Origin: Deltaproteobacteria bacterium
GTDB lineage: Bacteria > Myxococcota_A > Bradymonadia > REDH01
DNA: 57,237 nucleotides
Assembly: GCA_007693585.1 (NCBI GenBank)
Contig: REDH01000060.1
Location: 1 to 57,237, forward strand
Direction: 5' to 3'
Made by a program: the position numbers and the translations under genes. Below are positions 13,711-32,248 of this stretch, in pieces; positions within the stretch are counted from its first letter, which is position 1; each line of letters starts with the position of its first letter. Below the pieces are notes generated by a model. The model saw nothing but the letters and a program-made list of their open reading frames with translations, was not told where the DNA came from and did no database searches.

Positions 13711-14205
13711 ATGAGTGCCCAGAAGGAAACTCCCGAGTTCGCCGAGCGCCCCGGATGGGGCGGCGCGGGGTACATCGTGGCGATGGTGCTGATCCTGTCG
13801 GTGGTGCTCGGCATCTGGTTCGGCCGGCAGTACGTGACGTTTCTCGGGCACGTGCGGGACACGCTGCACGAGCCGGACACGCCGCATTCGTGGCAGCTCG
13901 GCCCGGTGGCTCCCGAGCAGTGCGTGGACGAGGCGCTCGCCTGGGCGGCGCGGTGCACGGGGATCAAGACCCTGTGCGACATGTACGTGAGCCACTTCGT
14001 GGAGCTGTGCCTCGATGCGCACGACCGGCGGTCCTACTGCCGGGAGCTGCAGGGGCGGCATGTGACGACGGACTTCGGGGTGCTCGAGTGCCAGGCGCGG
14101 GGGGTGCGGCGCCATCTGGATGACCAGGCGTGCAACAACGCCTACCGGCAGATCGACACGCACTGCACCCGAATCCTGGAAGGCTCCGGCGCGGAGGCTC
14201 CATGA
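13711..14205 (+). CDS. Membrane-anchored CX10C-repeat protein, oxidase biogenesis operon
   Basis: No named family was recognised. The 164-residue protein starts at ATG 13711 and has one transmembrane helix at residues 17-38 (GAGYIVAMVLILSVVLGIWF), leaving a periplasmic domain with eight cysteines at 71, 82, 89, 100, 110, 127, 141 and 152. Three pairs have CX10C spacing, and the first four residues form C-X10-C-X6-C-X10-C. That layout suits an antiparallel helical hairpin held by two disulfides, like the twin CX9C proteins of mitochondria, several of which assist copper delivery to cytochrome oxidase. The stop overlaps the heme A synthase start (ATGA), so coupled expression is likely. A role as periplasmic copper or thiol-redox assembly factor is inference. 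Confidence 0.75.
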   Translation: MSAQKETPEFAERPGWGGAGYIVAMVLILSVVLGIWFGRQYVTFLGHVRDTLHEPDTPHSWQLGPVAPEQCVDEALAWAARCTGIKTLCDMYVSHFVELCLDAHDRRSYCRELQGRHVTTDFGVLECQARGVRRHLDDQACNNAYRQIDTHCTRILEGSGAEAP

Positions 14206-15167
14206 ACGCACGACGCGTCCGGATCTTCGACGGCTTCGCGCTGTTCACCCTCGCCTACACGATGCTGGTGATCCTGTGGGGTGCGTGGGTGCGCATCACC
14301 GGGAGCGGGGCGGGCTGCGGGCAGCACTGGCCGACGTGTCATGGGGAGATCATCCCCACGGCGCCGTCGATGGAGACCTTCATCGAGTTCTTTCACCGGG
14401 TGACGAGCGGGCTGGCCGTGCTCGTGGTCATCGCCCTCCTCGTGCTGGCGGTGAAGACCTTCCCGAAGGGACATCTGGCGCGTCGCGGGGCGTGGCTGAC
14501 GTTCATCTTCATCCTGATCGAGTGCCTCATCGGCGCGGCGCTGGTGGTGTTCGCCCTGGTGGGCGACAACGACTCGGCCACCCGGGCCATCCTGATGGCC
14601 ATCCATCTGGTGAACACCTCGCTGCTGACGGGGGTGATGCTGCTCGCGGTGTGGTGGGCGCGGCGCAACATCCCGCTCGGCTGGTCGCTGGACACGCGCC
14701 TCGGGCTGCACCTCGCGATCAGCATGGGCGTGCTGATGCTCATCAACGCGTCGGGCGCGGTGACCGCCCTCGGGGACACCCTGTATCCGATCCGCGTGGA
14801 GCCCGGGACCGGGCTGATCGAGCGCCTCGACGTGGCGACGCTGTCCACGCGCAATTTCCTGATCCAGATGCGGATCTGGCATCCGTTCATCGCCGTGGCC
14901 GGCGGGATCTGGCTCATCGTGCACGCGGCGATGGCCGCGCTCGGTGCGCGGCGGGACCGGGCGGTGCGCATCTGGGCCGGCTGGGTCGCCGGGCTGGTGG
15001 CGGTGCAGCTCGTGTGCGGGGTCGTGAACATCCTGCTCGGCGCGCCCGGGTGGATGCAGATCCTGCATCTGTTCCTGGCGAAGGGGGTGTGGCTGGCGTG
15101 GGTGTGGTTCGGGCTCCATGCCCTGCGCCACGCGCAGGGATACGCTCTCGACGAGGAGGGGGCGTGA
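14202..15167 (+). CDS. ctaA: Heme A synthase (COX15/CtaA family)
   Basis: This integral membrane enzyme oxidises the C8 methyl of heme O to give heme A for the aa3-type oxidase. At 321 residues it has about eight transmembrane helices. Conserved features visible are RITGSGAGCGQHWPTCHG near residue 31 (family WVRLTGSG and the extracellular cysteine pair), the histidine in EFFHRVTSGLAVL, NTSLLTGVMLLAVWW, RIWHPFIAVAGG and the final LHLFLAKGVWLAWVW. The start ATG at 14202 overlaps the preceding stop, and its own stop overlaps the next gene's GTG start. It is part of a tightly packed biogenesis operon. Confidence 0.93.
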   Translation: MNARRVRIFDGFALFTLAYTMLVILWGAWVRITGSGAGCGQHWPTCHGEIIPTAPSMETFIEFFHRVTSGLAVLVVIALLVLAVKTFPKGHLARRGAWLTFIFILIECLIGAALVVFALVGDNDSATRAILMAIHLVNTSLLTGVMLLAVWWARRNIPLGWSLDTRLGLHLAISMGVLMLINASGAVTALGDTLYPIRVEPGTGLIERLDVATLSTRNFLIQMRIWHPFIAVAGGIWLIVHAAMAALGARRDRAVRIWAGWVAGLVAVQLVCGVVNILLGAPGWMQILHLFLAKGVWLAWVWFGLHALRHAQGYALDEEGA

Positions 15168-16117
15168 GCGCTCCGGCGCTCGCTCCCCTCGCCGCCGCCG
15201 GCCCGCCCGCGGGCGTGGTGGACGGGGACGTGCGGCCGCAGGCCCCCGAGCCGGGGCTGCTGCGCGACCTGATGACCCTGGGGAAGCCCGGGATCACGAT
15301 CATGTGCCTCATCATGGCCGCCGGGGCCTACGCGCTCGGGGTCGAGGTCTTCGCGCCGGGCGTGTTCCTGGCGATGCTCGCCGGCACCGGGCTGTCGGTG
15401 ATGAGCGCGAATGCGTTCAACATGATCATCGAGCGCGACGGCGACCGCTACATGGCGCGCACGCGCAGCCGGCCGCTCGCCGCAGGGCGCATGGGCCTCC
15501 CGGTGGCGTTCGCGTTCGCCGGAACCACCGGCATCGCCTCGGTGGTGGTGCTGCTGTTGTGGACGAATCCGCTGACCGCGGGGCTCGCGATGGCCGCGCA
15601 CGTGCTCTACGTCGGCGTGTACACCCCGGCGAAGCGGCGGACGACCCAGGCGCTGGCCATCGGCGCCGTGCCCGGGGCCATGCCGCCGCTCGTCGGCTGG
15701 GCCGCCGCCACGGGGAGCATCGGCGCGCCCGGGCTGGTGCTCTTCCTCGTGCTGGCCCTGTGGCAGCTCCCCCACTTTCTCGCGATCTCGATCTATCGGC
15801 GCGCCGACTACGAGCAGGCCGGAATCCTCGTGGTGCCGGCGGTGCGCGGCGAGGCGGCCGCGCGGATGCAGGCCTTCGTGTACTCGTTCCTGATGGTGCC
15901 CGCCTCCCTGCTCCTGGTCCTCATCGGCACCGCCGGCTTCCTCTACTTCGTCGTCGCCTCCGTCCTCGGTGCGTGGTTCCTGTTCCTGAGCCTGCAGGGC
16001 CTCGAACCGGACAGCGACGACAGCTGGGCCCGGAAGTTCTTCCTGGCGAGCCTGGTCTATCTTCCGGCGCTGACCCTCGGGCTCGTGCTCGATCGCCTCT
16101 TCTTCCAGGGATACTGA
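15164..16117 (+). CDS. ctaB: Protoheme IX farnesyltransferase (heme O synthase)
   Basis: The enzyme transfers farnesyl from farnesyl diphosphate to heme B in the membrane, making heme O, the substrate of the preceding gene's product. The UbiA-type prenyl-diphosphate site is seen as NAFNMIIERDGDRYMARTRS from residue 83, and the second conserved loop as YTPAKRRTTQALAIGAVPGA. Several transmembrane helices follow to residue 317. GTG 15164 is the start because it overlaps the heme A synthase stop and gives the normal family length; longer frames run antisense-like through the upstream gene. Confidence 0.94.
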   Translation: MSAPALAPLAAAGPPAGVVDGDVRPQAPEPGLLRDLMTLGKPGITIMCLIMAAGAYALGVEVFAPGVFLAMLAGTGLSVMSANAFNMIIERDGDRYMARTRSRPLAAGRMGLPVAFAFAGTTGIASVVVLLLWTNPLTAGLAMAAHVLYVGVYTPAKRRTTQALAIGAVPGAMPPLVGWAAATGSIGAPGLVLFLVLALWQLPHFLAISIYRRADYEQAGILVVPAVRGEAAARMQAFVYSFLMVPASLLLVLIGTAGFLYFVVASVLGAWFLFLSLQGLEPDSDDSWARKFFLASLVYLPALTLGLVLDRLFFQGY

Positions 16118-17073
16118 TGGCCTCGGTGCTCGACATCCGGGGGCTGTCGCACCGCATCGGGGACCGCCCCGTGCTGCAGGACGTGTCCCTCGACGTCGCG
16201 GCGGGGGAGATTGTGGGGCTCCTCGGCCCCAACGGCAGCGGGAAGTCGACCCTCCTCGGCCTGCTCACCGGACGCTGGCGACCGGCTCCCGGGACGGTGC
16301 GATTCGAGGGGGAAGCCATGGAGGGCGTGCGTCGGCGGTTCGCCGCTCAGCTCGGGGTGGTGTTCCAGCAGCCCGCCCTCGACGGCAAGCTGACCGCTCG
16401 GCAGAACCTCCGGCTCGCGGCGATGATGCACGCGCTTCCCGCCGCCGAGGCCGCGGCGCGGATCGCGGAAGGCCTCGCGGATGCGGAGCTCACGGAGCGC
16501 GCCGACGAGCCGGTGGAGACCTTCTCGGGCGGGATGCGCCGGCGCCTCGACGTCGCCCGCGCGCTGCTTCCCCGGCCGCGGGTGCTGCTGCTCGACGAGC
16601 CCACCACGGGACTCGACGAGGCGAGCTTCCGCGCGCTCTGGGGGCGACTGCTGCCCCGGATCCGGGAGCGGCGGCTCGCGGTGCTCGTGGCGACCCACCG
16701 GCCCGACGAGGCGGCGCGATGCGACCGCCTGCTCCTGCTGCACGGCGGGCGCGTGGTGCGCGAGGCGACGCCGGAGGCGCTGCTTCAGGAGGTCGGGCGG
16801 GATCTCGTGGTGCTGCACGGGGACGAACCGGACGCAATCGCCCGGCGCGTGGCCGAATGGGACGGGGCGCTGGCGGTGGAGCGCGTGGGCGGCGAGGTCC
16901 AGATCGTCTGCGAGGACGGGCCGACGCTGCTGCCCGCGGTGCTCGCGCAGTTCGCGGCGGGCGAGATCGCCATGGCGGCGCTTCGCCGCCCGAGCCTGGC
17001 GGACGCGTTCGCCAGGCTGACCGGCGAGACCCTCGACGGGGACGCGACCCCGGGGGAGGCGCTGGCGTCATGA
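16117..17073 (+). CDS. ABC transporter ATP-binding protein, oxidase biogenesis
   Basis: This 318-residue ABC ATPase carries Walker A GPNGSGKST (about residue 37), the signature FSGGMRRRLDVARALL, Walker B VLLLDEPTTGLDE and the switch histidine in ATHRPDE. A C-terminal extension of about 90 residues follows the nucleotide-binding core, as in NosF- and CcmA-like exporters. It starts by sharing one base with the ctaB stop (TGATG) and overlaps the permease gene by four bases. Position between heme synthesis and a SCO-like protein suggests a role in oxidase assembly, perhaps heme or copper-related export; the substrate is unknown. Confidence 0.9.
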   Translation: MASVLDIRGLSHRIGDRPVLQDVSLDVAAGEIVGLLGPNGSGKSTLLGLLTGRWRPAPGTVRFEGEAMEGVRRRFAAQLGVVFQQPALDGKLTARQNLRLAAMMHALPAAEAAARIAEGLADAELTERADEPVETFSGGMRRRLDVARALLPRPRVLLLDEPTTGLDEASFRALWGRLLPRIRERRLAVLVATHRPDEAARCDRLLLLHGGRVVREATPEALLQEVGRDLVVLHGDEPDAIARRVAEWDGALAVERVGGEVQIVCEDGPTLLPAVLAQFAAGEIAMAALRRPSLADAFARLTGETLDGDATPGEALAS

Positions 17074-17870
17074 GCACGGCGACGACCGGCGGCGGCCTGC
17101 GCTGGGACTGGGCGGTGATCCGGACCCTGTGGCTGCGGGACTTCCTGCGGCTGCGCCGCGAGCGCAGCAGGTGGCTGGGCATCGTGCTGCAGCCGGTGCT
17201 GTTCTGGGTGATCCTCGGCAGTGGCTTCGCGGATTCGTTCCGGCTGGCGGGCGACGCGGAGACGGACTACCTGGCGTTCTTCTACCCGGGCATTCTGGTG
17301 ATGATCATGCTGTTCTCCACGATCTTCGCCATGATGGCGCTGATCGAGGACCGGCAGAGCGGATTCCTGCAGGGCATCCTCGCGGGCCCGGCGTCCCGGC
17401 CGGCGATGGTGCTGGGGCGCCTTGCGGGTCTGGTGTCGATGGTGCTGCTGCAGACGGGGCTCTTCATGCTGCTGGCTCCGCTGGCCGGCTACCCGTTCGG
17501 CGCGGTGGACTGGGCGCTGCTGCTGCTGGCGATCGTGCTCGGGGCGCTCCTGCTCGGCGCGCTGAACTTCGCGGCGGCGTGGCTCCTCGACAGCACACAG
17601 GGGTACCACGCGGTGATGGGGGTCGTGCTGATCCCGCTCTGGGTGCTGTCCGGCGCGATGTTCCCGCCCGGGGATGGGCTGATCGGCCGGCTGATGGTGG
17701 CCAATCCCATGCACTGGATGGTCGAGGCGGTGCGCGCCGGGCTCGAGGGCTCGTCGACGCCGGCGGCGTGGGCGGTGGTCGCGGGGCTCGCGCTGGGGGC
17801 GGTCGTGGCGGTGGCGCTGGCCGGCTGGGTCAGCCGCCCGCCCGCCGGCGGGGGAGGAGGGTCGGCATGA
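17070..17870 (+). CDS. ABC-2 type transporter permease
   Basis: The 266-residue product has six predicted transmembrane segments and the ABC-2 family outline, for example YLAFFYPGILVMIMLFSTIF, then EDRQSGFLQGILAGPASRP at the cytosolic loop, and VLIPLWVLSGAMFPPGDG with NPMHWMVEAVRAGLEG near the end. It is the membrane partner of the ATPase gene it overlaps. ATG 17070 overlaps that gene's stop (ATGA). Homology to NosY/NodJ-type permeases is likely; the cargo is not known. Confidence 0.9.
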   Translation: MSTATTGGGLRWDWAVIRTLWLRDFLRLRRERSRWLGIVLQPVLFWVILGSGFADSFRLAGDAETDYLAFFYPGILVMIMLFSTIFAMMALIEDRQSGFLQGILAGPASRPAMVLGRLAGLVSMVLLQTGLFMLLAPLAGYPFGAVDWALLLLAIVLGALLLGALNFAAAWLLDSTQGYHAVMGVVLIPLWVLSGAMFPPGDGLIGRLMVANPMHWMVEAVRAGLEGSSTPAAWAVVAGLALGAVVAVALAGWVSRPPAGGGGGSA

Positions 17871-18547
17871 CGGACCCCACACCAGCGCAGGCCGGGCCGG
17901 AGCGGTCGGACGCCGCCGCCACACCGGCGGAGTTCCCGGTCATCGGCTGGCGGAGTCCGTGGATGTGGTCGTTCCTGATCGGGGCCTTCACGCTGACCAT
18001 GCTGCGGCCGTGCATGCGCTACATTCCGGACCCACCGCCGGTGGTGGCGGAGCTTCCCGCGTTCACGCTGACGGCGGCGGACGGAACGCCGTTCACCCGG
18101 GCGAACCTGGAGGGCGGCACGACGGTGGTGGCGCTCGTGTGCGCGTCGTGCGGAGCGTCGGACGCTCGCCGGCTGGAACAGCTGCGGGAGCTCACGGAGT
18201 CCTTCGCGGATGCGGACTGGCCCGTGCGGATCTGGGCGATGGGGGTGGATCCGGAGCGCGACACGCCGGCGACGATGACCCAGTTGCGGGAGCGGCTGCT
18301 GCCGGAGTCCTCGTCCTGGTGGCTGACGAGCGGGGAGCCGGCGGAGGTCGAGAGGCTGCTGGAGGTGTTCTCGCAGGCGGAGCATGGGCCTGCGAGGGGG
18401 GAGGAGATCTGGCGGGCCGCGGGGCACGATGCGTTCGGGCTGATCGATCGGCAGGGTGCCCTGCGCGGGTTCTTCGTGGTGACCGATTCGCACGGCGTGG
18501 ACGAGGTTCGGCACCGCGCGGTTCACGTGATCCGGGAGGATGGATGA
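17867..18547 (+). CDS. SCO-like thioredoxin-fold membrane protein with a CxxC site
   Basis: The 226-residue protein has one N-terminal transmembrane helix (about residues 33-52) and a periplasmic thioredoxin-like domain. IWAMGVDPERDTPATM matches the SCO1/SenC signature (ISIDPERDT), and His187 in GHDAFGLIDRQG sits where SCO proteins keep the copper-binding histidine. The cysteines are at 92 and 95 (VCASCGASD), so spacing is CxxC instead of the usual SCO CxxxC. A copper chaperone or a thiol reductase for CuA or SCO maturation are both possible. It overlaps the permease stop (ATGA) and ends the first block. A second, classical SCO is encoded at 27553. Confidence 0.8.
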   Translation: MTDPTPAQAGPERSDAAATPAEFPVIGWRSPWMWSFLIGAFTLTMLRPCMRYIPDPPPVVAELPAFTLTAADGTPFTRANLEGGTTVVALVCASCGASDARRLEQLRELTESFADADWPVRIWAMGVDPERDTPATMTQLRERLLPESSSWWLTSGEPAEVERLLEVFSQAEHGPARGEEIWRAAGHDAFGLIDRQGALRGFFVVTDSHGVDEVRHRAVHVIREDG

Positions 18548-18897: not shown

Positions 18898-19535
18898 GTG
18901 ATCTTCCCTCGGTGGACGAACCATGTCCCGGTGGCGCTGGTGCTCGGAGCACCGTTTGCGCTGGTGGGGGTGGTGGCGTTCATCTGGTATTACTTCTCCC
19001 CGCAGTACACGCAGGTGGGGTATGCGCCCCCGCAGCCTGTTCCCTTCAGTCACAAGCTGCATGCCGGCGACCTGGGGATGGACTGCGTCTACTGTCACAC
19101 CACGGTGGAGGACGCCGCGTTCGCGGCGGTTCCGCCGACGGCGACCTGCATGAACTGTCATGCCCAGGTGGCGACAGACAGCCCGCAGCTCGCGCTCGTG
19201 CGCCGCGCGTACGAGACCGGGGAGCCGATTCCGTGGGTGCGCGTCCACATGCTTCCCGACTACGCCAACTTCGACCACAGCGTGCATGTGGCGGCCGGGG
19301 TGGGGTGCGCGTCGTGTCACGGCCGGATCGATCAGATGGAAGTCGTGTACCAGGCCGAGTCCCTGAGCATGGGATGGTGCCTGGACTGTCACCGGAACCC
19401 GGAGCCGCACCTGCGCCCCCGGAGCGAGGTGACGAACATGGACTGGGACGCGCAGGCCGCGGGCTATGACCCGGCGGCGGATCCGCACCGGATGCGCGAC
19501 CTCAACCCGCCGCAACACTGCTCCGGGTGTCACCA

Positions 19536-19539
<4 letters not shown>
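18898..19539 (+). CDS. actA: Alternative complex III pentaheme cytochrome c subunit ActA
   Basis: ActA is the pentaheme c-type subunit that takes electrons from the iron-sulfur subunit ActB in the quinol-oxidising alternative complex III. One N-terminal transmembrane helix anchors a periplasmic domain with five CxxCH sites at residues 63, 84, 137, 161 and 208 (CVYCH, CMNCH, CASCH, CLDCH, CSGCH). Two GTG codons are possible: 18892 lies only two bases after AAGGAG, whereas 18898 is eight bases from it, so the latter is chosen; the products differ by two residues. The stop overlaps the actB start. Confidence 0.92.
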
Positions 19540-22607
<3,068 letters not shown>

Positions 22608-22631
22608 CGCGTCCCCAGGGGAAGAGAAGCC

Positions 22632-24055
<1,424 letters not shown>

Positions 24056-24056
<1 letters not shown>

Positions 24057-24601
24057 TGGCCAACGAGAACCGAAACAGCGCCCACTGGGGCGCGCTCGCC
24101 CAGTTCGCCACCCCCGCAGACCTCTACCACGCGTGCGAGAAGGTGCGGGACGCGGGCTTCTCGAAGTGGGACGCACATACCCCGTTCCCCGTGCACGGCC
24201 TCGACAAGGCCATGGGCATGCAACAGAGCAAGTTGCCGTGGATCGTCCTCGGCGCAGGACTCACCGGAGCAGCGCTGGCGTTCTGGATGCAGACCTGGAT
24301 GTCCGCGATCGCCTACCCGCTGATCATTTCCGGCAAGCCCTACTGGAGCTGGCAGGCCTTCATCCCGATCACCTTCGAACTCGGCATTCTCTTCGCCGCC
24401 TTCGGGGCCGTGTTCGGCATGATGGCGCTCAACAGGCTCCCCATGCTCTGGCACCCGCTCTTCCGGAGCCGCCGCTTCGAACGCGTCACCGACGACGCCT
24501 TCTTCATCTCCATCGAGTCCACCGATCCGAAGTTCGACGCGCGTGCCACGCTCGAACTGCTCACGGAATTCGGTGCGACCCACGTGGAACTGGTGGAGTA
24601 G
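24056..24601 (+). CDS. actD: Alternative complex III subunit ActD (DUF3341)
   Basis: ActD is a small membrane subunit with two transmembrane helices, found in all characterised alternative complex III assemblies. The 181-residue protein opens with a soluble segment containing FATPADLYHACEKVRDAGF and WDAHTPFPVHGLDKAMG, typical of DUF3341, followed by helices at about 60-80 and 100-125 and a C-terminal domain with IESTDPKFD. It shares a base with the actC stop and lies directly before actE, as in other act operons. Confidence 0.92.
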
Positions 24602-24605
24602 ACCC

Positions 24606-25241
24606 ATGACCCGCTCCCTGAACATGAAGAACCCTATTCGCGGTCTGCTCCTCCTCGGAGCGCTGACGCTGATTCTGAGCGGATGCCGTGGCTTCACCTT
24701 CGAGAAGCCACCGATCGACCTGATTCAGAACATGCACTTCCAGACCCACTTCGGGGCACAGCAGGAAGCCCCGTTCTGGGAGGACCGCCGATCCATGCGA
24801 CCTCGACCCGAAGGCGTCGTCGCCCGCGGACACCTCCGCAACGACAGCCATCTCTACGAGGGACGGATCGACGGCGCGTACGCGTCGACCCTGCCCATGG
24901 AACTCGACGAGGATCTGCTCGACCGCGGACAGGATCGCTACGAGATCTTCTGCGCACCCTGCCATGGGGCCGCCGGACACGGCGACGCAGCCATCCCGTC
25001 CCGCTCCAACTGGGTCGTGCCCACCCTGCACGCGGAACGCTCGCGGTCGATGCCCGTCGGGCAGCTCTACGACATCGTCGCCAACGGCGTGAACACCATG
25101 CCGGGCTACGCAGAGCAGATTCGCGTGAATGATCGATGGGCCATCGCCGCATATGTGCGGGCGCTCCAGGTCAGCCAGGGACTGACGCTCGACGAGATTC
25201 CCGCGGACATCGCCGCCGCACAGGGATGGGGGAGACGATGA
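24606..25241 (+). CDS. actE: Alternative complex III monoheme cytochrome c lipoprotein ActE
   Basis: ActE is a monoheme cytochrome c anchored to the membrane by lipid, thought to pass electrons from ActA to the terminal oxidase. The 211-residue product has a lipoprotein signal (GLLLLGALTLILSGC), a CxxCH site at residue 116 (CAPCHGAAGHGD) and a likely methionine ligand in NGVNTMPGYAEQI. ATG 24606 is four bases after actD; a second ATG at 24624 would also keep the signal. It overlaps actF by four bases. Confidence 0.92.
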   Translation: MTRSLNMKNPIRGLLLLGALTLILSGCRGFTFEKPPIDLIQNMHFQTHFGAQQEAPFWEDRRSMRPRPEGVVARGHLRNDSHLYEGRIDGAYASTLPMELDEDLLDRGQDRYEIFCAPCHGAAGHGDAAIPSRSNWVVPTLHAERSRSMPVGQLYDIVANGVNTMPGYAEQIRVNDRWAIAAYVRALQVSQGLTLDEIPADIAAAQGWGRR

Positions 25242-26467
25242 GCCACGGACACCACAGCATGGAACTGAAGCCTGAAGCCATTCGCCTCGCGGAAAACTCC
25301 ACGTGGCGAAAGCTCCCGATGATCGCCGGCATCATCGGACTGGCCTCGCTGGCCGCAACGATGGGGCTCGCCGGGGATGACCCGAAGGGTGCGCTCCTGT
25401 CCTACCTCACCGCCCTGATGTTCGTCATCAGCATCGGCGTCGGCGCATCCTTCTTCGTGACCATCCAGTTCCTCACCCGGGCCGGATGGAGCGTCGTCGT
25501 GCGCCGCCTGATGGAGAACCTGATGGCGCCGCTCTTCCTGTTCATCGTGCTGTTCATCCCCATCCTGCTGAACCTCGATGTCATCTACAAGTGGACGAAC
25601 CCGGAGCTGCAGAACCCGGACAGCCCGTACTTCGACTACCTGGCCGTGGTGAAGGCCCCGTACCTCAACGAGAGCTTCTTCACCGGACGCTCGATCTTCT
25701 ACCTCGTCGCACTCGCCGCCATCGGCTGGTTCTTCTACAGCCGGAGCACCGGACAGGACGAGAGCGGCGACAAGGAAGTGACGCGCAAGCTCCAGTTCCT
25801 GTCGGCCCCGGCCATCATGATCCTGGCGCTCGTGTCGACCTTCGCCGCCGTCGACTGGGTGATGACCCTCGACTTCCACTGGTTCTCGACCATCTTCGGC
25901 GTCTACTGGTTCGCAGGCTCCTTCCTCGTGGCCCTGTGCACGACCATCCTGCTCGTCCTCGGGCTGAAGAAGAGCGGACTCCTCGATGGGGTCGTCACCG
26001 TGGAGCACTACCACGACCTCGGCAAGCTCACCTTCGGCTTCGTGGTGTTCTGGACCTACATCGCCTTCAGCCAGTACTTCCTCATCTGGTACGCGAACAT
26101 CCCCGAGACCACGATGTGGTTCGGACTCCGGCTCGACGGAACCTGGAGCGGGGCATCCGTGCTGCTCGCCCTCGGCCATTTCGTGATCCCCTTCGCGTTC
26201 CTCATGCCCCGCACCCTCAAGCGGATCCCGCTGACCCTCGGCATCGCCGCGGCGTGGCTGGTGTTCATGCACTACCTCGACATGTACTGGCTGATCATGC
26301 CGACGGCCCACCCCGAAGGACCGCAGCCCGGGCTGATCGACCTGACGGCACTGCTCGGTGTGGGTGGACTCTACTTCGCCGTCTTCGGATGGGCGCTTGG
26401 CCGTCGTGCCCTCATCCCCGAAAAGGATCCGCGTCTCCCCGAGTCGCTGGCGTTCGAGAACTTCTGA
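25238..26467 (+). CDS. actF: Alternative complex III membrane subunit ActF
   Basis: ActF is a second ten-helix membrane protein, related to ActC, and completes the membrane part of alternative complex III. The 409-residue protein has a short His-rich N-terminus (MSHGHHSMEL) and helices throughout. TFAAVDWVMTLDFHWFSTIF and WTYIAFSQYFLIWYANIPE are typical of the family, as is the late HYLDMYWLIMPTAHPEGP. ATG 25238 overlaps the actE stop (ATGA). Confidence 0.92.
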   Translation: MSHGHHSMELKPEAIRLAENSTWRKLPMIAGIIGLASLAATMGLAGDDPKGALLSYLTALMFVISIGVGASFFVTIQFLTRAGWSVVVRRLMENLMAPLFLFIVLFIPILLNLDVIYKWTNPELQNPDSPYFDYLAVVKAPYLNESFFTGRSIFYLVALAAIGWFFYSRSTGQDESGDKEVTRKLQFLSAPAIMILALVSTFAAVDWVMTLDFHWFSTIFGVYWFAGSFLVALCTTILLVLGLKKSGLLDGVVTVEHYHDLGKLTFGFVVFWTYIAFSQYFLIWYANIPETTMWFGLRLDGTWSGASVLLALGHFVIPFAFLMPRTLKRIPLTLGIAAAWLVFMHYLDMYWLIMPTAHPEGPQPGLIDLTALLGVGGLYFAVFGWALGRRALIPEKDPRLPESLAFENF

Positions 26468-27552: not shown

Positions 27553-28413
27553 ATGACGAGTCCCTCGGCCTGTTCACTGGACATGGCGATGCGCAACCTG
27601 ATCCACATCATCGTGCCCGCTCTGCTCGTCGCGCTGGCGAGCCCTGCGGACGCTCAACGCACCGACTTCATCCCCGAAGCACTGCAGGGGGTGGACGTCG
27701 ACGAACGGCTCGGTGGCATGGTCGACCTCGACCTCACCTTCGTGAACGCCGAGGGCGAAAGCGTACGGCTCCGAGACTTCGTGCGGGACGGGCGGCCGAT
27801 CCTGCTGACGCTGAACTACTACGACTGCCCGATGCTCTGTGACCTGCAGCTCAACGCGGTGGTCGACACGCTCTCGCAGTTGCGCGAGAACTGGGTGCCC
27901 GGGAACCAGTTCGAGCTGGTCACCATCAGCTTCGACCCCGAGGAGGGACCCGAGCTGGCCGCAGGAAAGCAGCGGGCGTACCGCGCCTCCCTCGGCCGGG
28001 GCAGTGATGCCGGATGGCACTTCCTCGTCGGTGACCGCGAGAACATCGACGCGCTCACTGAACAGCTCGGATACATGTACCAGTTCATCGAGGAGGCGGG
28101 TGAGTTCTCGCATCCCTCGGTGCTCATGTTTCTCTCCCCCGAGGGGCGCATCACCCGCTACCTGTACGGGCTGATGTACGACCCGCAGGACGTTCGCCTC
28201 GCCCTGCTCGAGGCGAGCGAGGGGCGAGTCGGATCGCCCATGGAGCGCATCATCCTGTCGTGCTTCATCTACGACCCCGATCGGGGTGCCTACATCCCCT
28301 ACGCCTTCGGCATCATGCGCATCGCAGGTGCCGTCACTGTCTTCCTGATCCTGGTCATGCTGCTGGTGCTCTGGCGCCGGGAGCAGCATGAACCCGTCCC
28401 CACCGCGGCCTAG
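27553..28413 (+). CDS. SCO1/SenC copper chaperone for cytochrome oxidase
   Basis: SCO proteins bind copper in the periplasm and help build the CuA centre of CoxB. Here the ligands are all present: Cys92 and Cys96 in YYDCPMLCD and His187 in EFSHPSVLMF, in a thioredoxin fold. The N-terminus holds a signal (NLIHIIVPALLVALASPADAQ), and an unusual C-terminal transmembrane helix lies near residue 260. Starts at 27553, 27583 or 27589 are all possible. The gene sits just before coxB, as expected. Confidence 0.9.
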   Translation: MTSPSACSLDMAMRNLIHIIVPALLVALASPADAQRTDFIPEALQGVDVDERLGGMVDLDLTFVNAEGESVRLRDFVRDGRPILLTLNYYDCPMLCDLQLNAVVDTLSQLRENWVPGNQFELVTISFDPEEGPELAAGKQRAYRASLGRGSDAGWHFLVGDRENIDALTEQLGYMYQFIEEAGEFSHPSVLMFLSPEGRITRYLYGLMYDPQDVRLALLEASEGRVGSPMERIILSCFIYDPDRGAYIPYAFGIMRIAGAVTVFLILVMLLVLWRREQHEPVPTAA

Positions 28414-28422
28414 AGAACGACC

Positions 28423-29403
28423 ATGATCAACACGCTACTGGCCAATGCCAACGGCGCCACCTTCTGGCTCCCCGTCCAGGCGTCGACCTTCGCCGAAGTC
28501 CACGACCCGCTCTTCTACTTCATCTACTGGGTGTGCGTCGTGTCGTTCGTCGTGGTCGTCGGCGTGATGGCGTACTTCGGTGTCAAGTACAAGCGCAAGC
28601 AGGAAGGAGAGCGAACCAGCGGAAACCGCGGCAACTTTGCCCTGGAAGTCGGCTGGATCGCCGTGCCGTCCGTCTTCCTCCTCATCATCTTCTGGTGGGG
28701 CTTCCAGGGCTTCGTGATGTACCAGACCCCACCGGCGAACACGCTGAACGTCCGCGTGACCGCCGACACGTGGAGCTGGAGCTTCCGATACCCCGACGGC
28801 ACCGTCTCTTCGGAGCTGATCGTTCCCGTGGATCAGCCCGTGCGGCTGACCATGACGAGCGAGTCCGGCAGCGCGCAGGGGGCGGTGATTCACTCGCTCT
28901 TCATCCCGGCCTTCCGCCTCAAGCGCGACGTGCTCCCCGACCGATACACGGTGCTGTGGTTCGAGGCCACGCGCGAGGGCACCTACACCCTCTTCTGCAC
29001 CGAGTACTGCGGCACCGGACACTCCGAGATGAACGTGCCCGTGCATGTGGTGCCCTCGGACGAGTTCGCCGAACGCCTCGCCGCGCTCGACAGCGCGCCC
29101 GACGGCATGACGACCGCCGAATGGGGGCAGCAGCTCTTCGCACAGCAGGGCTGCACCGCCTGTCACAGTGTCGATGGCTCCCGGCTGATCGGACCCACCA
29201 TGCAGGGGCTCTACGGCTCCACCCGCGAGTTCACCGACGGCTCGACGCGCGTCGCGGACGAGAACTACCTGCGAGAGTCCATCCTTGAACCCTCAGCACT
29301 GATCAATGTGGGCTACCAGAACGTGATGCCCAGCTACGCCGGCCGACTCACCGACGGACGGCTCGACGCCATCATCGCCTACATCGAGTCCCTCGCGGAC
29401 TGA
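28423..29403 (+). CDS. coxB: Cytochrome c oxidase subunit II with fused cytochrome c (caa3 type)
   Basis: CoxB receives electrons from a cytochrome and passes them to heme a of CoxA through CuA. Two N-terminal transmembrane helices (about residues 30-55 and 75-95) precede a cupredoxin domain with WSWSFRYPDG. The CuA ligands appear in CTEYCGTGHSEM as Cys192, Cys196, His200 and Met203. A C-terminal cytochrome c domain follows, with CxxCH at 244-248 and a candidate Met ligand in NVMPSYAG, so the oxidase is of the caa3 kind. ATG 28423 follows the SCO gene by nine bases. Length 326 residues. Confidence 0.94.
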   Translation: MINTLLANANGATFWLPVQASTFAEVHDPLFYFIYWVCVVSFVVVVGVMAYFGVKYKRKQEGERTSGNRGNFALEVGWIAVPSVFLLIIFWWGFQGFVMYQTPPANTLNVRVTADTWSWSFRYPDGTVSSELIVPVDQPVRLTMTSESGSAQGAVIHSLFIPAFRLKRDVLPDRYTVLWFEATREGTYTLFCTEYCGTGHSEMNVPVHVVPSDEFAERLAALDSAPDGMTTAEWGQQLFAQQGCTACHSVDGSRLIGPTMQGLYGSTREFTDGSTRVADENYLRESILEPSALINVGYQNVMPSYAGRLTDGRLDAIIAYIESLAD

Positions 29404-29427
29404 ACCCGCGCTTCCGAGGAAACCGCC

Positions 29428-31092
<1,665 letters not shown>

Positions 31093-31102
31093 GGACCCAC
31101 CC

Positions 31103-31759
31103 ATGAGCACCGCCCACGCCCACGGGGGACATCACCACCCCTTCCACGCCCACCACTTCGAGACGCTGCCTCAGCAGGAGGCCAGCGCACGAATGGGAAT
31201 GTGGCTCTTCCTCGGACAGGAACTCCTGTTCTTCTCCGCGGTCTTCGTCGCCTTCTTCGTCTTCCAGTACATGTACCCGGAAGGCTTCCTCGAGGCGCAC
31301 CGTACCCTCTCCATCCCGCTCGGGACCCTCAACACGCTCGTGCTCCTGACGAGCTCCCTCACCATGGCCCTCGCCGTGCGAAACGCACAGCTCGGCGACA
31401 ACAAGGGCGTCGTGAAGCAACTCGGCTTCACCATCGCCCTCGCCACGGTCTTCATGATCGTGAAGTACTTCGAGTACTCCGGAAAGATCGAGAAGGGACA
31501 GCTCCCCGGCCAGTGGTACACCTACGAGGGTCTCCCCGAAGGCGCGAGCATCTTCTTCACCATGTACTTCGTGATGACCGGTCTGCACGGTCTCCACATC
31601 GTCATCGGCATCGGGGTCCTCGCGTGGATCCTCATCCGGGCCACGAAGAACCAGTTCTCCGCCGAGTACTACGCCCCCGTCGAGAACGTCGGGCTCTACT
31701 GGCACCTCGTCGACCTGATCTGGATCTTCCTGTTCCCCTTCCTCTACCTCATCGAGTAG
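31103..31759 (+). CDS. coxC: Cytochrome c oxidase subunit III
   Basis: The 218-residue subunit III has five predicted transmembrane helices, as short CoxC forms do, and a His-rich N-terminus (HAHGGHHHPFHAHHFE). ARMGMWLFLGQELLFFSAVF and TGLHGLHIVIGIG are conserved family stretches, and the end reads GLYWHLVDLIWIFLFPFLYL. It stabilises CoxA and its proton pathway in the membrane. It follows coxA by ten bases. Confidence 0.94.
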   Translation: MSTAHAHGGHHHPFHAHHFETLPQQEASARMGMWLFLGQELLFFSAVFVAFFVFQYMYPEGFLEAHRTLSIPLGTLNTLVLLTSSLTMALAVRNAQLGDNKGVVKQLGFTIALATVFMIVKYFEYSGKIEKGQLPGQWYTYEGLPEGASIFFTMYFVMTGLHGLHIVIGIGVLAWILIRATKNQFSAEYYAPVENVGLYWHLVDLIWIFLFPFLYLIE

Positions 31760-31807
31760 TCCCGTCGCCGACGACCACACGGCCCTCTCGGCCCGGAGGA
31801 ATCCATC

Positions 31808-32248
31808 ATGAGTGCAGATTCGAACCACAACCAAGGTCATGGCGAACACCACGTCATGCCCCTGTCGACCTACTTCGCCGTCTTCGGAGCGCTGCTGGTC
31901 CTGACCGGCATCACCGTGCTGGTCTCGTTCCTCAAGCTCGGCCTCCTGGTCGCGGTCGTGATCGCGAGCATCAAGGCCGCCCTCGTCGTCGGCTACTTCA
32001 TGCACCTCAAGTACGATGACCGATTCTACTCGGTGATCCTGCTCAGCTCGCTCTTCGCCATCTTCTGCTTCTTCCTCTTCGTCTTCCTCGACTTCACCAG
32101 CCGGGGAATGGTGGTGCCCGAAGAGGAAACCAACTTCCTGCGTAACGAACGCGCCATGATCGAGCGCCTCGAGCAGGAAGAGGCCGCCGCCGCAGCAGCA
32201 GCCGAAGAGGAAGAGGAGGAAGAAGCCGAAGAAGACACCGGCGGCTGA
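31808..32248 (+). CDS. coxD: Cytochrome c oxidase subunit IV (prokaryotic)
   Basis: This 146-residue protein has three membrane helices in its first 100 residues (YFAVFGALLVLTGITVLVSF, then AVVIASIKAALVVGYFMHLK, then a third), which fits the bacterial COX4 family. VGYFMHLKYD is the typical helix-two motif. The last 45 residues form a charged, Glu/Ala-rich tail, longer than usual, of unknown function. It is the last gene of the act-cox operon, with GGAGG-like bases ahead of ATG 31808. Confidence 0.9.
   Translation: MSADSNHNQGHGEHHVMPLSTYFAVFGALLVLTGITVLVSFLKLGLLVAVVIASIKAALVVGYFMHLKYDDRFYSVILLSSLFAIFCFFLFVFLDFTSRGMVVPEEETNFLRNERAMIERLEQEEAAAAAAAEEEEEEEAEEDTGG

Follow-up and report, generated by a model that had tools for sequence, protein, structure and literature searches.

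An eight-cysteine, membrane-anchored protein encoded ahead of ctaA and ctaB: a candidate accessory factor in bacterial oxidase assembly

How copper and heme are loaded into the oxidases of bacteria without Cox11 and PCuAC is poorly known. In this regard, a small cysteine-rich gene translated together with ctaA and ctaB raises the question of what its product does, since an invariant eight-cysteine family in such a place is a concrete candidate for a missing factor. The gene lies at positions 13711-14205 of the window, the whole stretch of 57,237 nucleotides analysed here (contig REDH01000060.1 of a Deltaproteobacteria bacterium), and was put forward in a preliminary description as a possible membrane-tethered analogue of mitochondrial copper factors, coupled to heme A synthesis. 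The group that carries the family consists of soil and water bacteria, and if the protein were like the mitochondrial disulfide-hairpin factors, cysteine-hairpin helpers of cytochrome oxidase would have arisen in bacteria too.

The gene and the operon that it opens

The gene runs on the forward strand from an ATG start to a TGA stop, encodes 164 residues and is marked as coding by a codon-usage score calibrated on its neighbours; the open frame extends upstream of the ATG to 13477, and homology starts near the ATG at 13711. Its cysteines fall at residues 71, 82, 89, 100, 110, 127, 141 and 152, with spacings of 10, 6, 10, 9, 16, 13 and 10, so that the C-X10-C-X6-C-X10-C arrangement and the final CX10C of the preliminary description are borne out, as are the single membrane segment (one strong hydrophobic stretch, residues 19-37, N-terminal to the cysteine domain) and the four-base ATGA overlap, in which the stop codon overlaps the ATG of ctaA at 14202. 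The protein has no CC, CXC or CXXC motif, the charge balance around the anchor gives no signal for topology by the positive-inside rule, and the surroundings of the gene gave no Rfam or promoter match. The features of the locus, with the basis of each assignment, are as follows.

13711..14205, + strand: eight-cysteine protein with a single membrane anchor, 164 aa (open reading frame, family census, alignment)
13765..13821, + strand: hydrophobic anchor segment, residues 19-37 (hydropathy; model helix 18-51)
13912..14016, + strand: predicted helix pair with twin CX10C, residues 68-102, with C71, C82, C89 and C100 (models, helices 68-81 and 86-102; spacing 10-6-10)
14023..14178, + strand: second half of the cysteine domain, residues 105-156, with C110, C127 and a predicted third CX10C helix, C141 and C152 (models and alignment)
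14202..14205, + strand: ATGA stop/start overlap with ctaA (reading frame coordinates; four bases are likewise shared in at least 18 of 29 linked loci)
14202..15167, + strand: ctaA, heme A synthase (COX15-CtaA, Pfam E 8.9e-35)
15164..16117, + strand: ctaB/cyoE, heme O synthase (UbiA, E 5.6e-55; downstream in 29 of 29 linked loci)
16117..17073, + strand: ABC transporter ATPase (domain match)
17070..17870, + strand: ABC-2 type permease (domain match)
17867..18547, + strand: SCO1/SenC-like protein (E 3.8e-12)
18898..26467, + strand: alternative complex III genes actA to actF (actD by PF11821; the others by c-type heme content, order and homology)
27583..32248, + strand: second SCO1-like gene, coxB with a C-terminal cytochrome c, coxA, coxC and coxD (coxA, coxC and coxD by sequence inspection and order)

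From the eight-cysteine gene through ctaA, ctaB, the ABC pair and SCO1, successive genes overlap by 1-4 bases, and the ChaC-like gene found 426 bases upstream lies outside the conserved context. Several details of the neighbours can be recorded here. The SCO1-like protein at 17867-18547 carries CASC, a CXXC motif, in place of the CXXXC of canonical SCO proteins, and the canonical CPMLC is present in the second SCO1-like protein (27583-28413). Moreover, the ABC-2 type transporter pair that separates ctaB from SCO1 (16117-17870) recurs in L061, L066, L067, L077, L102 and other loci. The window genome encodes a VKOR and DsbA-like proteins with which disulfides could be made.

A family held together by its cysteines

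Successive profile searches found family members in 35, then 40, of 379 genomes of the phylum, and the 46 members collected were aligned. All eight cysteines are present in 46 of 46, every other column is variable, and identity to the window protein drops to about 20%; the doubt whether the cysteines would be conserved in homologues is thus settled in their favour. The CX10C spacing is kept between C1 and C2 in 44 members, between C3 and C4 in all 46 and between C7 and C8 in 45, and C4 and C5 are always 9 or 10 residues apart, with the remaining loops ranging over 4-9, 15-37 and 9-32 residues. Such a pattern, with all cysteines kept and the CX10C spacings near-fixed, is not due to chance. Eleven residues make about three helical turns, which would place the two cysteines of a CX10C pair on one face of a helix. 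In one clade of ten sequences (f34), two further cysteines were gained together. This paired gain, seen beside fixed CX10C spacings and free loops, points to structural disulfides in place of a metal site, and the 46 members share no invariant histidine or methionine. As separate observations, one of the extra cysteines of the oxidase-linked f34 members forms a CPC/CAC motif with C7 (e.g., L057 8546-9007), and the gene at G003:C89:10340-10818 (L006, L011, L015) is split across two frames, the cause being an error of sequencing or a genuine frameshift.

Searches with the whole alignment gave scattered chance matches only in Pfam and NCBIfam, and a profile search of PDB sequences returned a single chance match, in the membrane helix, and no relative. 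A tblastn search of plasmids yielded nothing beyond one partial match at E 0.3, and a genome-wide scan with narrow motifs returned close kin only, the profile census being confined to the phylum. Judged by these sequence searches, the window protein belongs to an unnamed family unmatched in Pfam, NCBIfam and PDB sequences, in line with the earlier statement that no named bacterial family with such a layout at this locus was known.

AlphaFold2 modelled the full-length protein, from a six-row alignment, with an anchor helix at 18-51 and helices at 68-81, 86-102, 106-116, 122-129 and 138-156 (pLDDT 70), and the soluble part alone with nearly identical helices (pTM 0.65, pLDDT 73). In these models C71 and C82 share a helix, the following helix contains C89 and C100, and the final one C141 and C152. 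The protein is thus predicted, with moderate confidence, to have a helical domain behind its anchor helix. The placing of the first four cysteines in two successive predicted helices agrees with the helical hairpin that had been proposed. In Foldseek, neither the full-length nor the soluble model had any match in the PDB below E 0.001, and the matches listed for them included no CHCH protein, a weak negative given the moderate confidence of the models. The suggested kinship to COX17- or CHCH-like profiles found no homology in Pfam or in PDB sequences; compared with Pfam-A up to E = 1, 38 members gave no match to CHCH, COX6B, COX17 or CMC1 profiles, and PF04442 (Cox11/CtaG) was also absent among the Pfam families that they matched.

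The resemblance to the mitochondrial twin-CX9C (CHCH) factors COA6, COX6B/Cox12, COA5/Pet191, COX17 and COX19 is accordingly one of layout, i.e., two regularly spaced cysteine pairs in helices, predicted ones in our case, and a link to cytochrome oxidase. In COA6 and COX6B the helical hairpin has a CX9C-CX10C pattern and is closed by the disulfides C1-C4 and C2-C3 (PMC6743065), and COA5 is CX10C-CX9C (PMC7909247). In contrast, the window family has CX10C in both twin segments, over which the two helices are predicted, with 6 (4-9) residues between them; it adds a membrane anchor and four more invariant cysteines, including a third CX10C, so that the window protein has twice the invariant cysteines of COA6 and COX6B; and it lacks any sequence match to CHCH factors in Pfam or the PDB, or a fold match by Foldseek with models of moderate confidence.

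Gene context across the phylum

For 29 of the 46 members, drawn from eight families of the phylum, the next gene is either ctaB itself or ctaA with ctaB behind it, and in at least 18 of these 29 linked loci the stop codon overlaps the start of the next gene by exactly four bases. That this overlap is kept despite large sequence divergence suggests coupled translation. Downstream, ctaB is found in all 29 loci. On the other hand, ctaA is the next gene in only 12, comprising six genomes of the window's family and six others; it was present in each of the 24 linked genomes tested, mostly at another genomic place. The proposed connection therefore holds for oxidase-assembly genes and not for heme A synthesis in particular: the gene does not always precede ctaA in relatives, and heme A synthesis was rejected as the common theme. 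Of the 23 loci whose sequence extends far enough downstream, 22 also have SCO1 and alternative complex III behind ctaB. In the exception (L060), the eight-cysteine gene stands beside ctaB and alternative complex III is on a separate contig, an arrangement in which the tie is with biogenesis genes and not with that complex. Its constant partner is ctaB together with the biogenesis segment.

We also considered the family as a marker of alternative complex III and rejected it, PF11821 being found in 321 of the 379 genomes and the family in only 40. Some genomes speak against the assembly role proposed below: ctaB precedes alternative complex III without a family gene in L117, as ctaA-ctaB-SCO1-act, and in L118 and L119, as ctaB-act; most genomes of the phylum hold ctaB and no detected family member. 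Other variants of this neighbourhood were seen. Four loci of one genus (L008-L011) have a type IV prepilin-like gene (GFTLIELMIVIAILG) between ctaA and ctaB, and the heme A synthases upstream of ctaB are of different types, that of L117 (6738-7853) having two cysteine-bearing repeats (ACPDWPTC and ACPDIPFC) and that of L120 (2606-3835, opposite strand) being a COX15-type enzyme without them.

The remaining 17 members are found away from oxidase genes. Ten of these unlinked paralogues (L047-L056) group as sister to the clade of the window protein, the two together having 98/95 support, and most of them occur in genomes that also carry an oxidase-linked copy. The other seven (L064, L065, L080, L103-L106) make up a distant group without oxidase linkage. 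Homologues unlinked to oxidase genes, which had been named as a sign against the proposal, thus do exist as a paralogue clade, next to the 29 members that are still linked. The occurrence of paralogues in other contexts indicates that the eight-cysteine domain is reusable, and it lowers our confidence in a strict oxidase role; an oxidase-only function is weakened by these paralogues, one group of which is the sister clade, and the window gene may descend from either the oxidase-linked or the unlinked side.

Candidate roles in oxidase assembly

Gene context leads us to favour, at roughly an even chance, a periplasm-facing, disulfide-locked, membrane-tethered accessory factor that would act as a docking or scaffold module in heme/copper oxidase assembly. 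The gene heads the ctaA-ctaB-ABC-SCO1 biogenesis segment, ahead of alternative complex III and the caa3-type oxidase. Its product would present an all-helical domain on the periplasmic side of the membrane, held rigid by probably four disulfides, for which we infer the pairs C71-C100 and C82-C89, with C110 and C127 joined to C141 and C152; the helices and the anchor are themselves predicted by the models. The domain may then bind, from the periplasmic side, to the oxidase under construction or to its SCO1/CtaB machinery as heme and copper are inserted. SCO1/SenC, encoded in the same operon, is a comparable protein, membrane-anchored, periplasmic and cysteine-dependent. SCO1 has a thioredoxin fold with a cysteine pair and a histidine, whereas the window protein is predicted to be all-helical and has no such motif. 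Likewise, Cox11/CtaG and PCuAC are small periplasmic proteins of oxidase assembly, as we propose for the window protein, and Cox11 is anchored by one helix; neither shows sequence similarity to the window family.

Cox11 was found in none of 17 family-bearing genomes tested and PCuAC in one, so that other factors may share the work of oxidase assembly and do part of the copper work in these genomes. The eight-cysteine protein might be thought a substitute for Cox11, but Cox11 is missing across most of the phylum anyway: most genomes without the eight-cysteine protein also lack Cox11, and its absence says little. Among 284 genomes Cox11 was confined to one family (f5), where it lies beside ctaB in a different gene order without the eight-cysteine protein. 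A broader and more tentative idea, which we consider possible if somewhat doubtful, is that the family arose independently of CHCH proteins and that its membrane-tethered, disulfide-locked CX10C helical domain works beside SCO1 and CtaB in building the oxidase, which would make it a counterpart of COA6/COX6B, convergent or else very remotely related, in bacteria where Cox11 is missing.

A different fate for the protein would be to stay in the finished enzyme, as a small COX6B-like accessory subunit attached, on the periplasmic side, either to the oxidase or to a supercomplex of oxidase and alternative complex III. COX6B is itself a subunit and a CX9C-CX10C disulfide hairpin (PMC6743065), rapid divergence around fixed cysteines suits a peripheral subunit, and the gene is linked to those of alternative complex III and the oxidase. 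Nevertheless, it sits among the biogenesis genes, outside the act and cox operons, the L060 copy accompanies ctaB apart from alternative complex III, and there are unlinked paralogues, all of which make a permanent subunit unlikely.

The SCO1-like gene in the same operon brings to mind a copper or thiol-disulfide carrier working with SCO1 on the CuA site, like COA6 or COX17, and the lack of Cox11 and of nearly all PCuAC in the 17 genomes would leave room for one. COA6 binds Cu(I), and its Cys58-Cys90 is one of the two disulfides of the hairpin (PMC6743065). We regard a carrier as improbable, however, given a window protein devoid of CC, CXC and CXXC, a family without invariant histidine or methionine, and an even number of co-conserved cysteines, with an extra pair gained jointly in one clade, which looks structural.

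Returning to the favoured assembly factor, the paralogues bear on one last alternative, a general disulfide-rich periplasmic binding domain used in several envelope systems and only incidentally placed in an operon with ctaA. Three paralogues (L047, L048, L051) have neighbours that look like gspC/gspD of type II secretion and the gene of an NtrC-like response regulator, others stand by unrelated genes, and the divergent group has no oxidase linkage; yet this explanation has little chance of being right for the window gene, as the position ahead of ctaA/ctaB, mostly with translational overlap, is kept by 29 of the 46 members across eight families.
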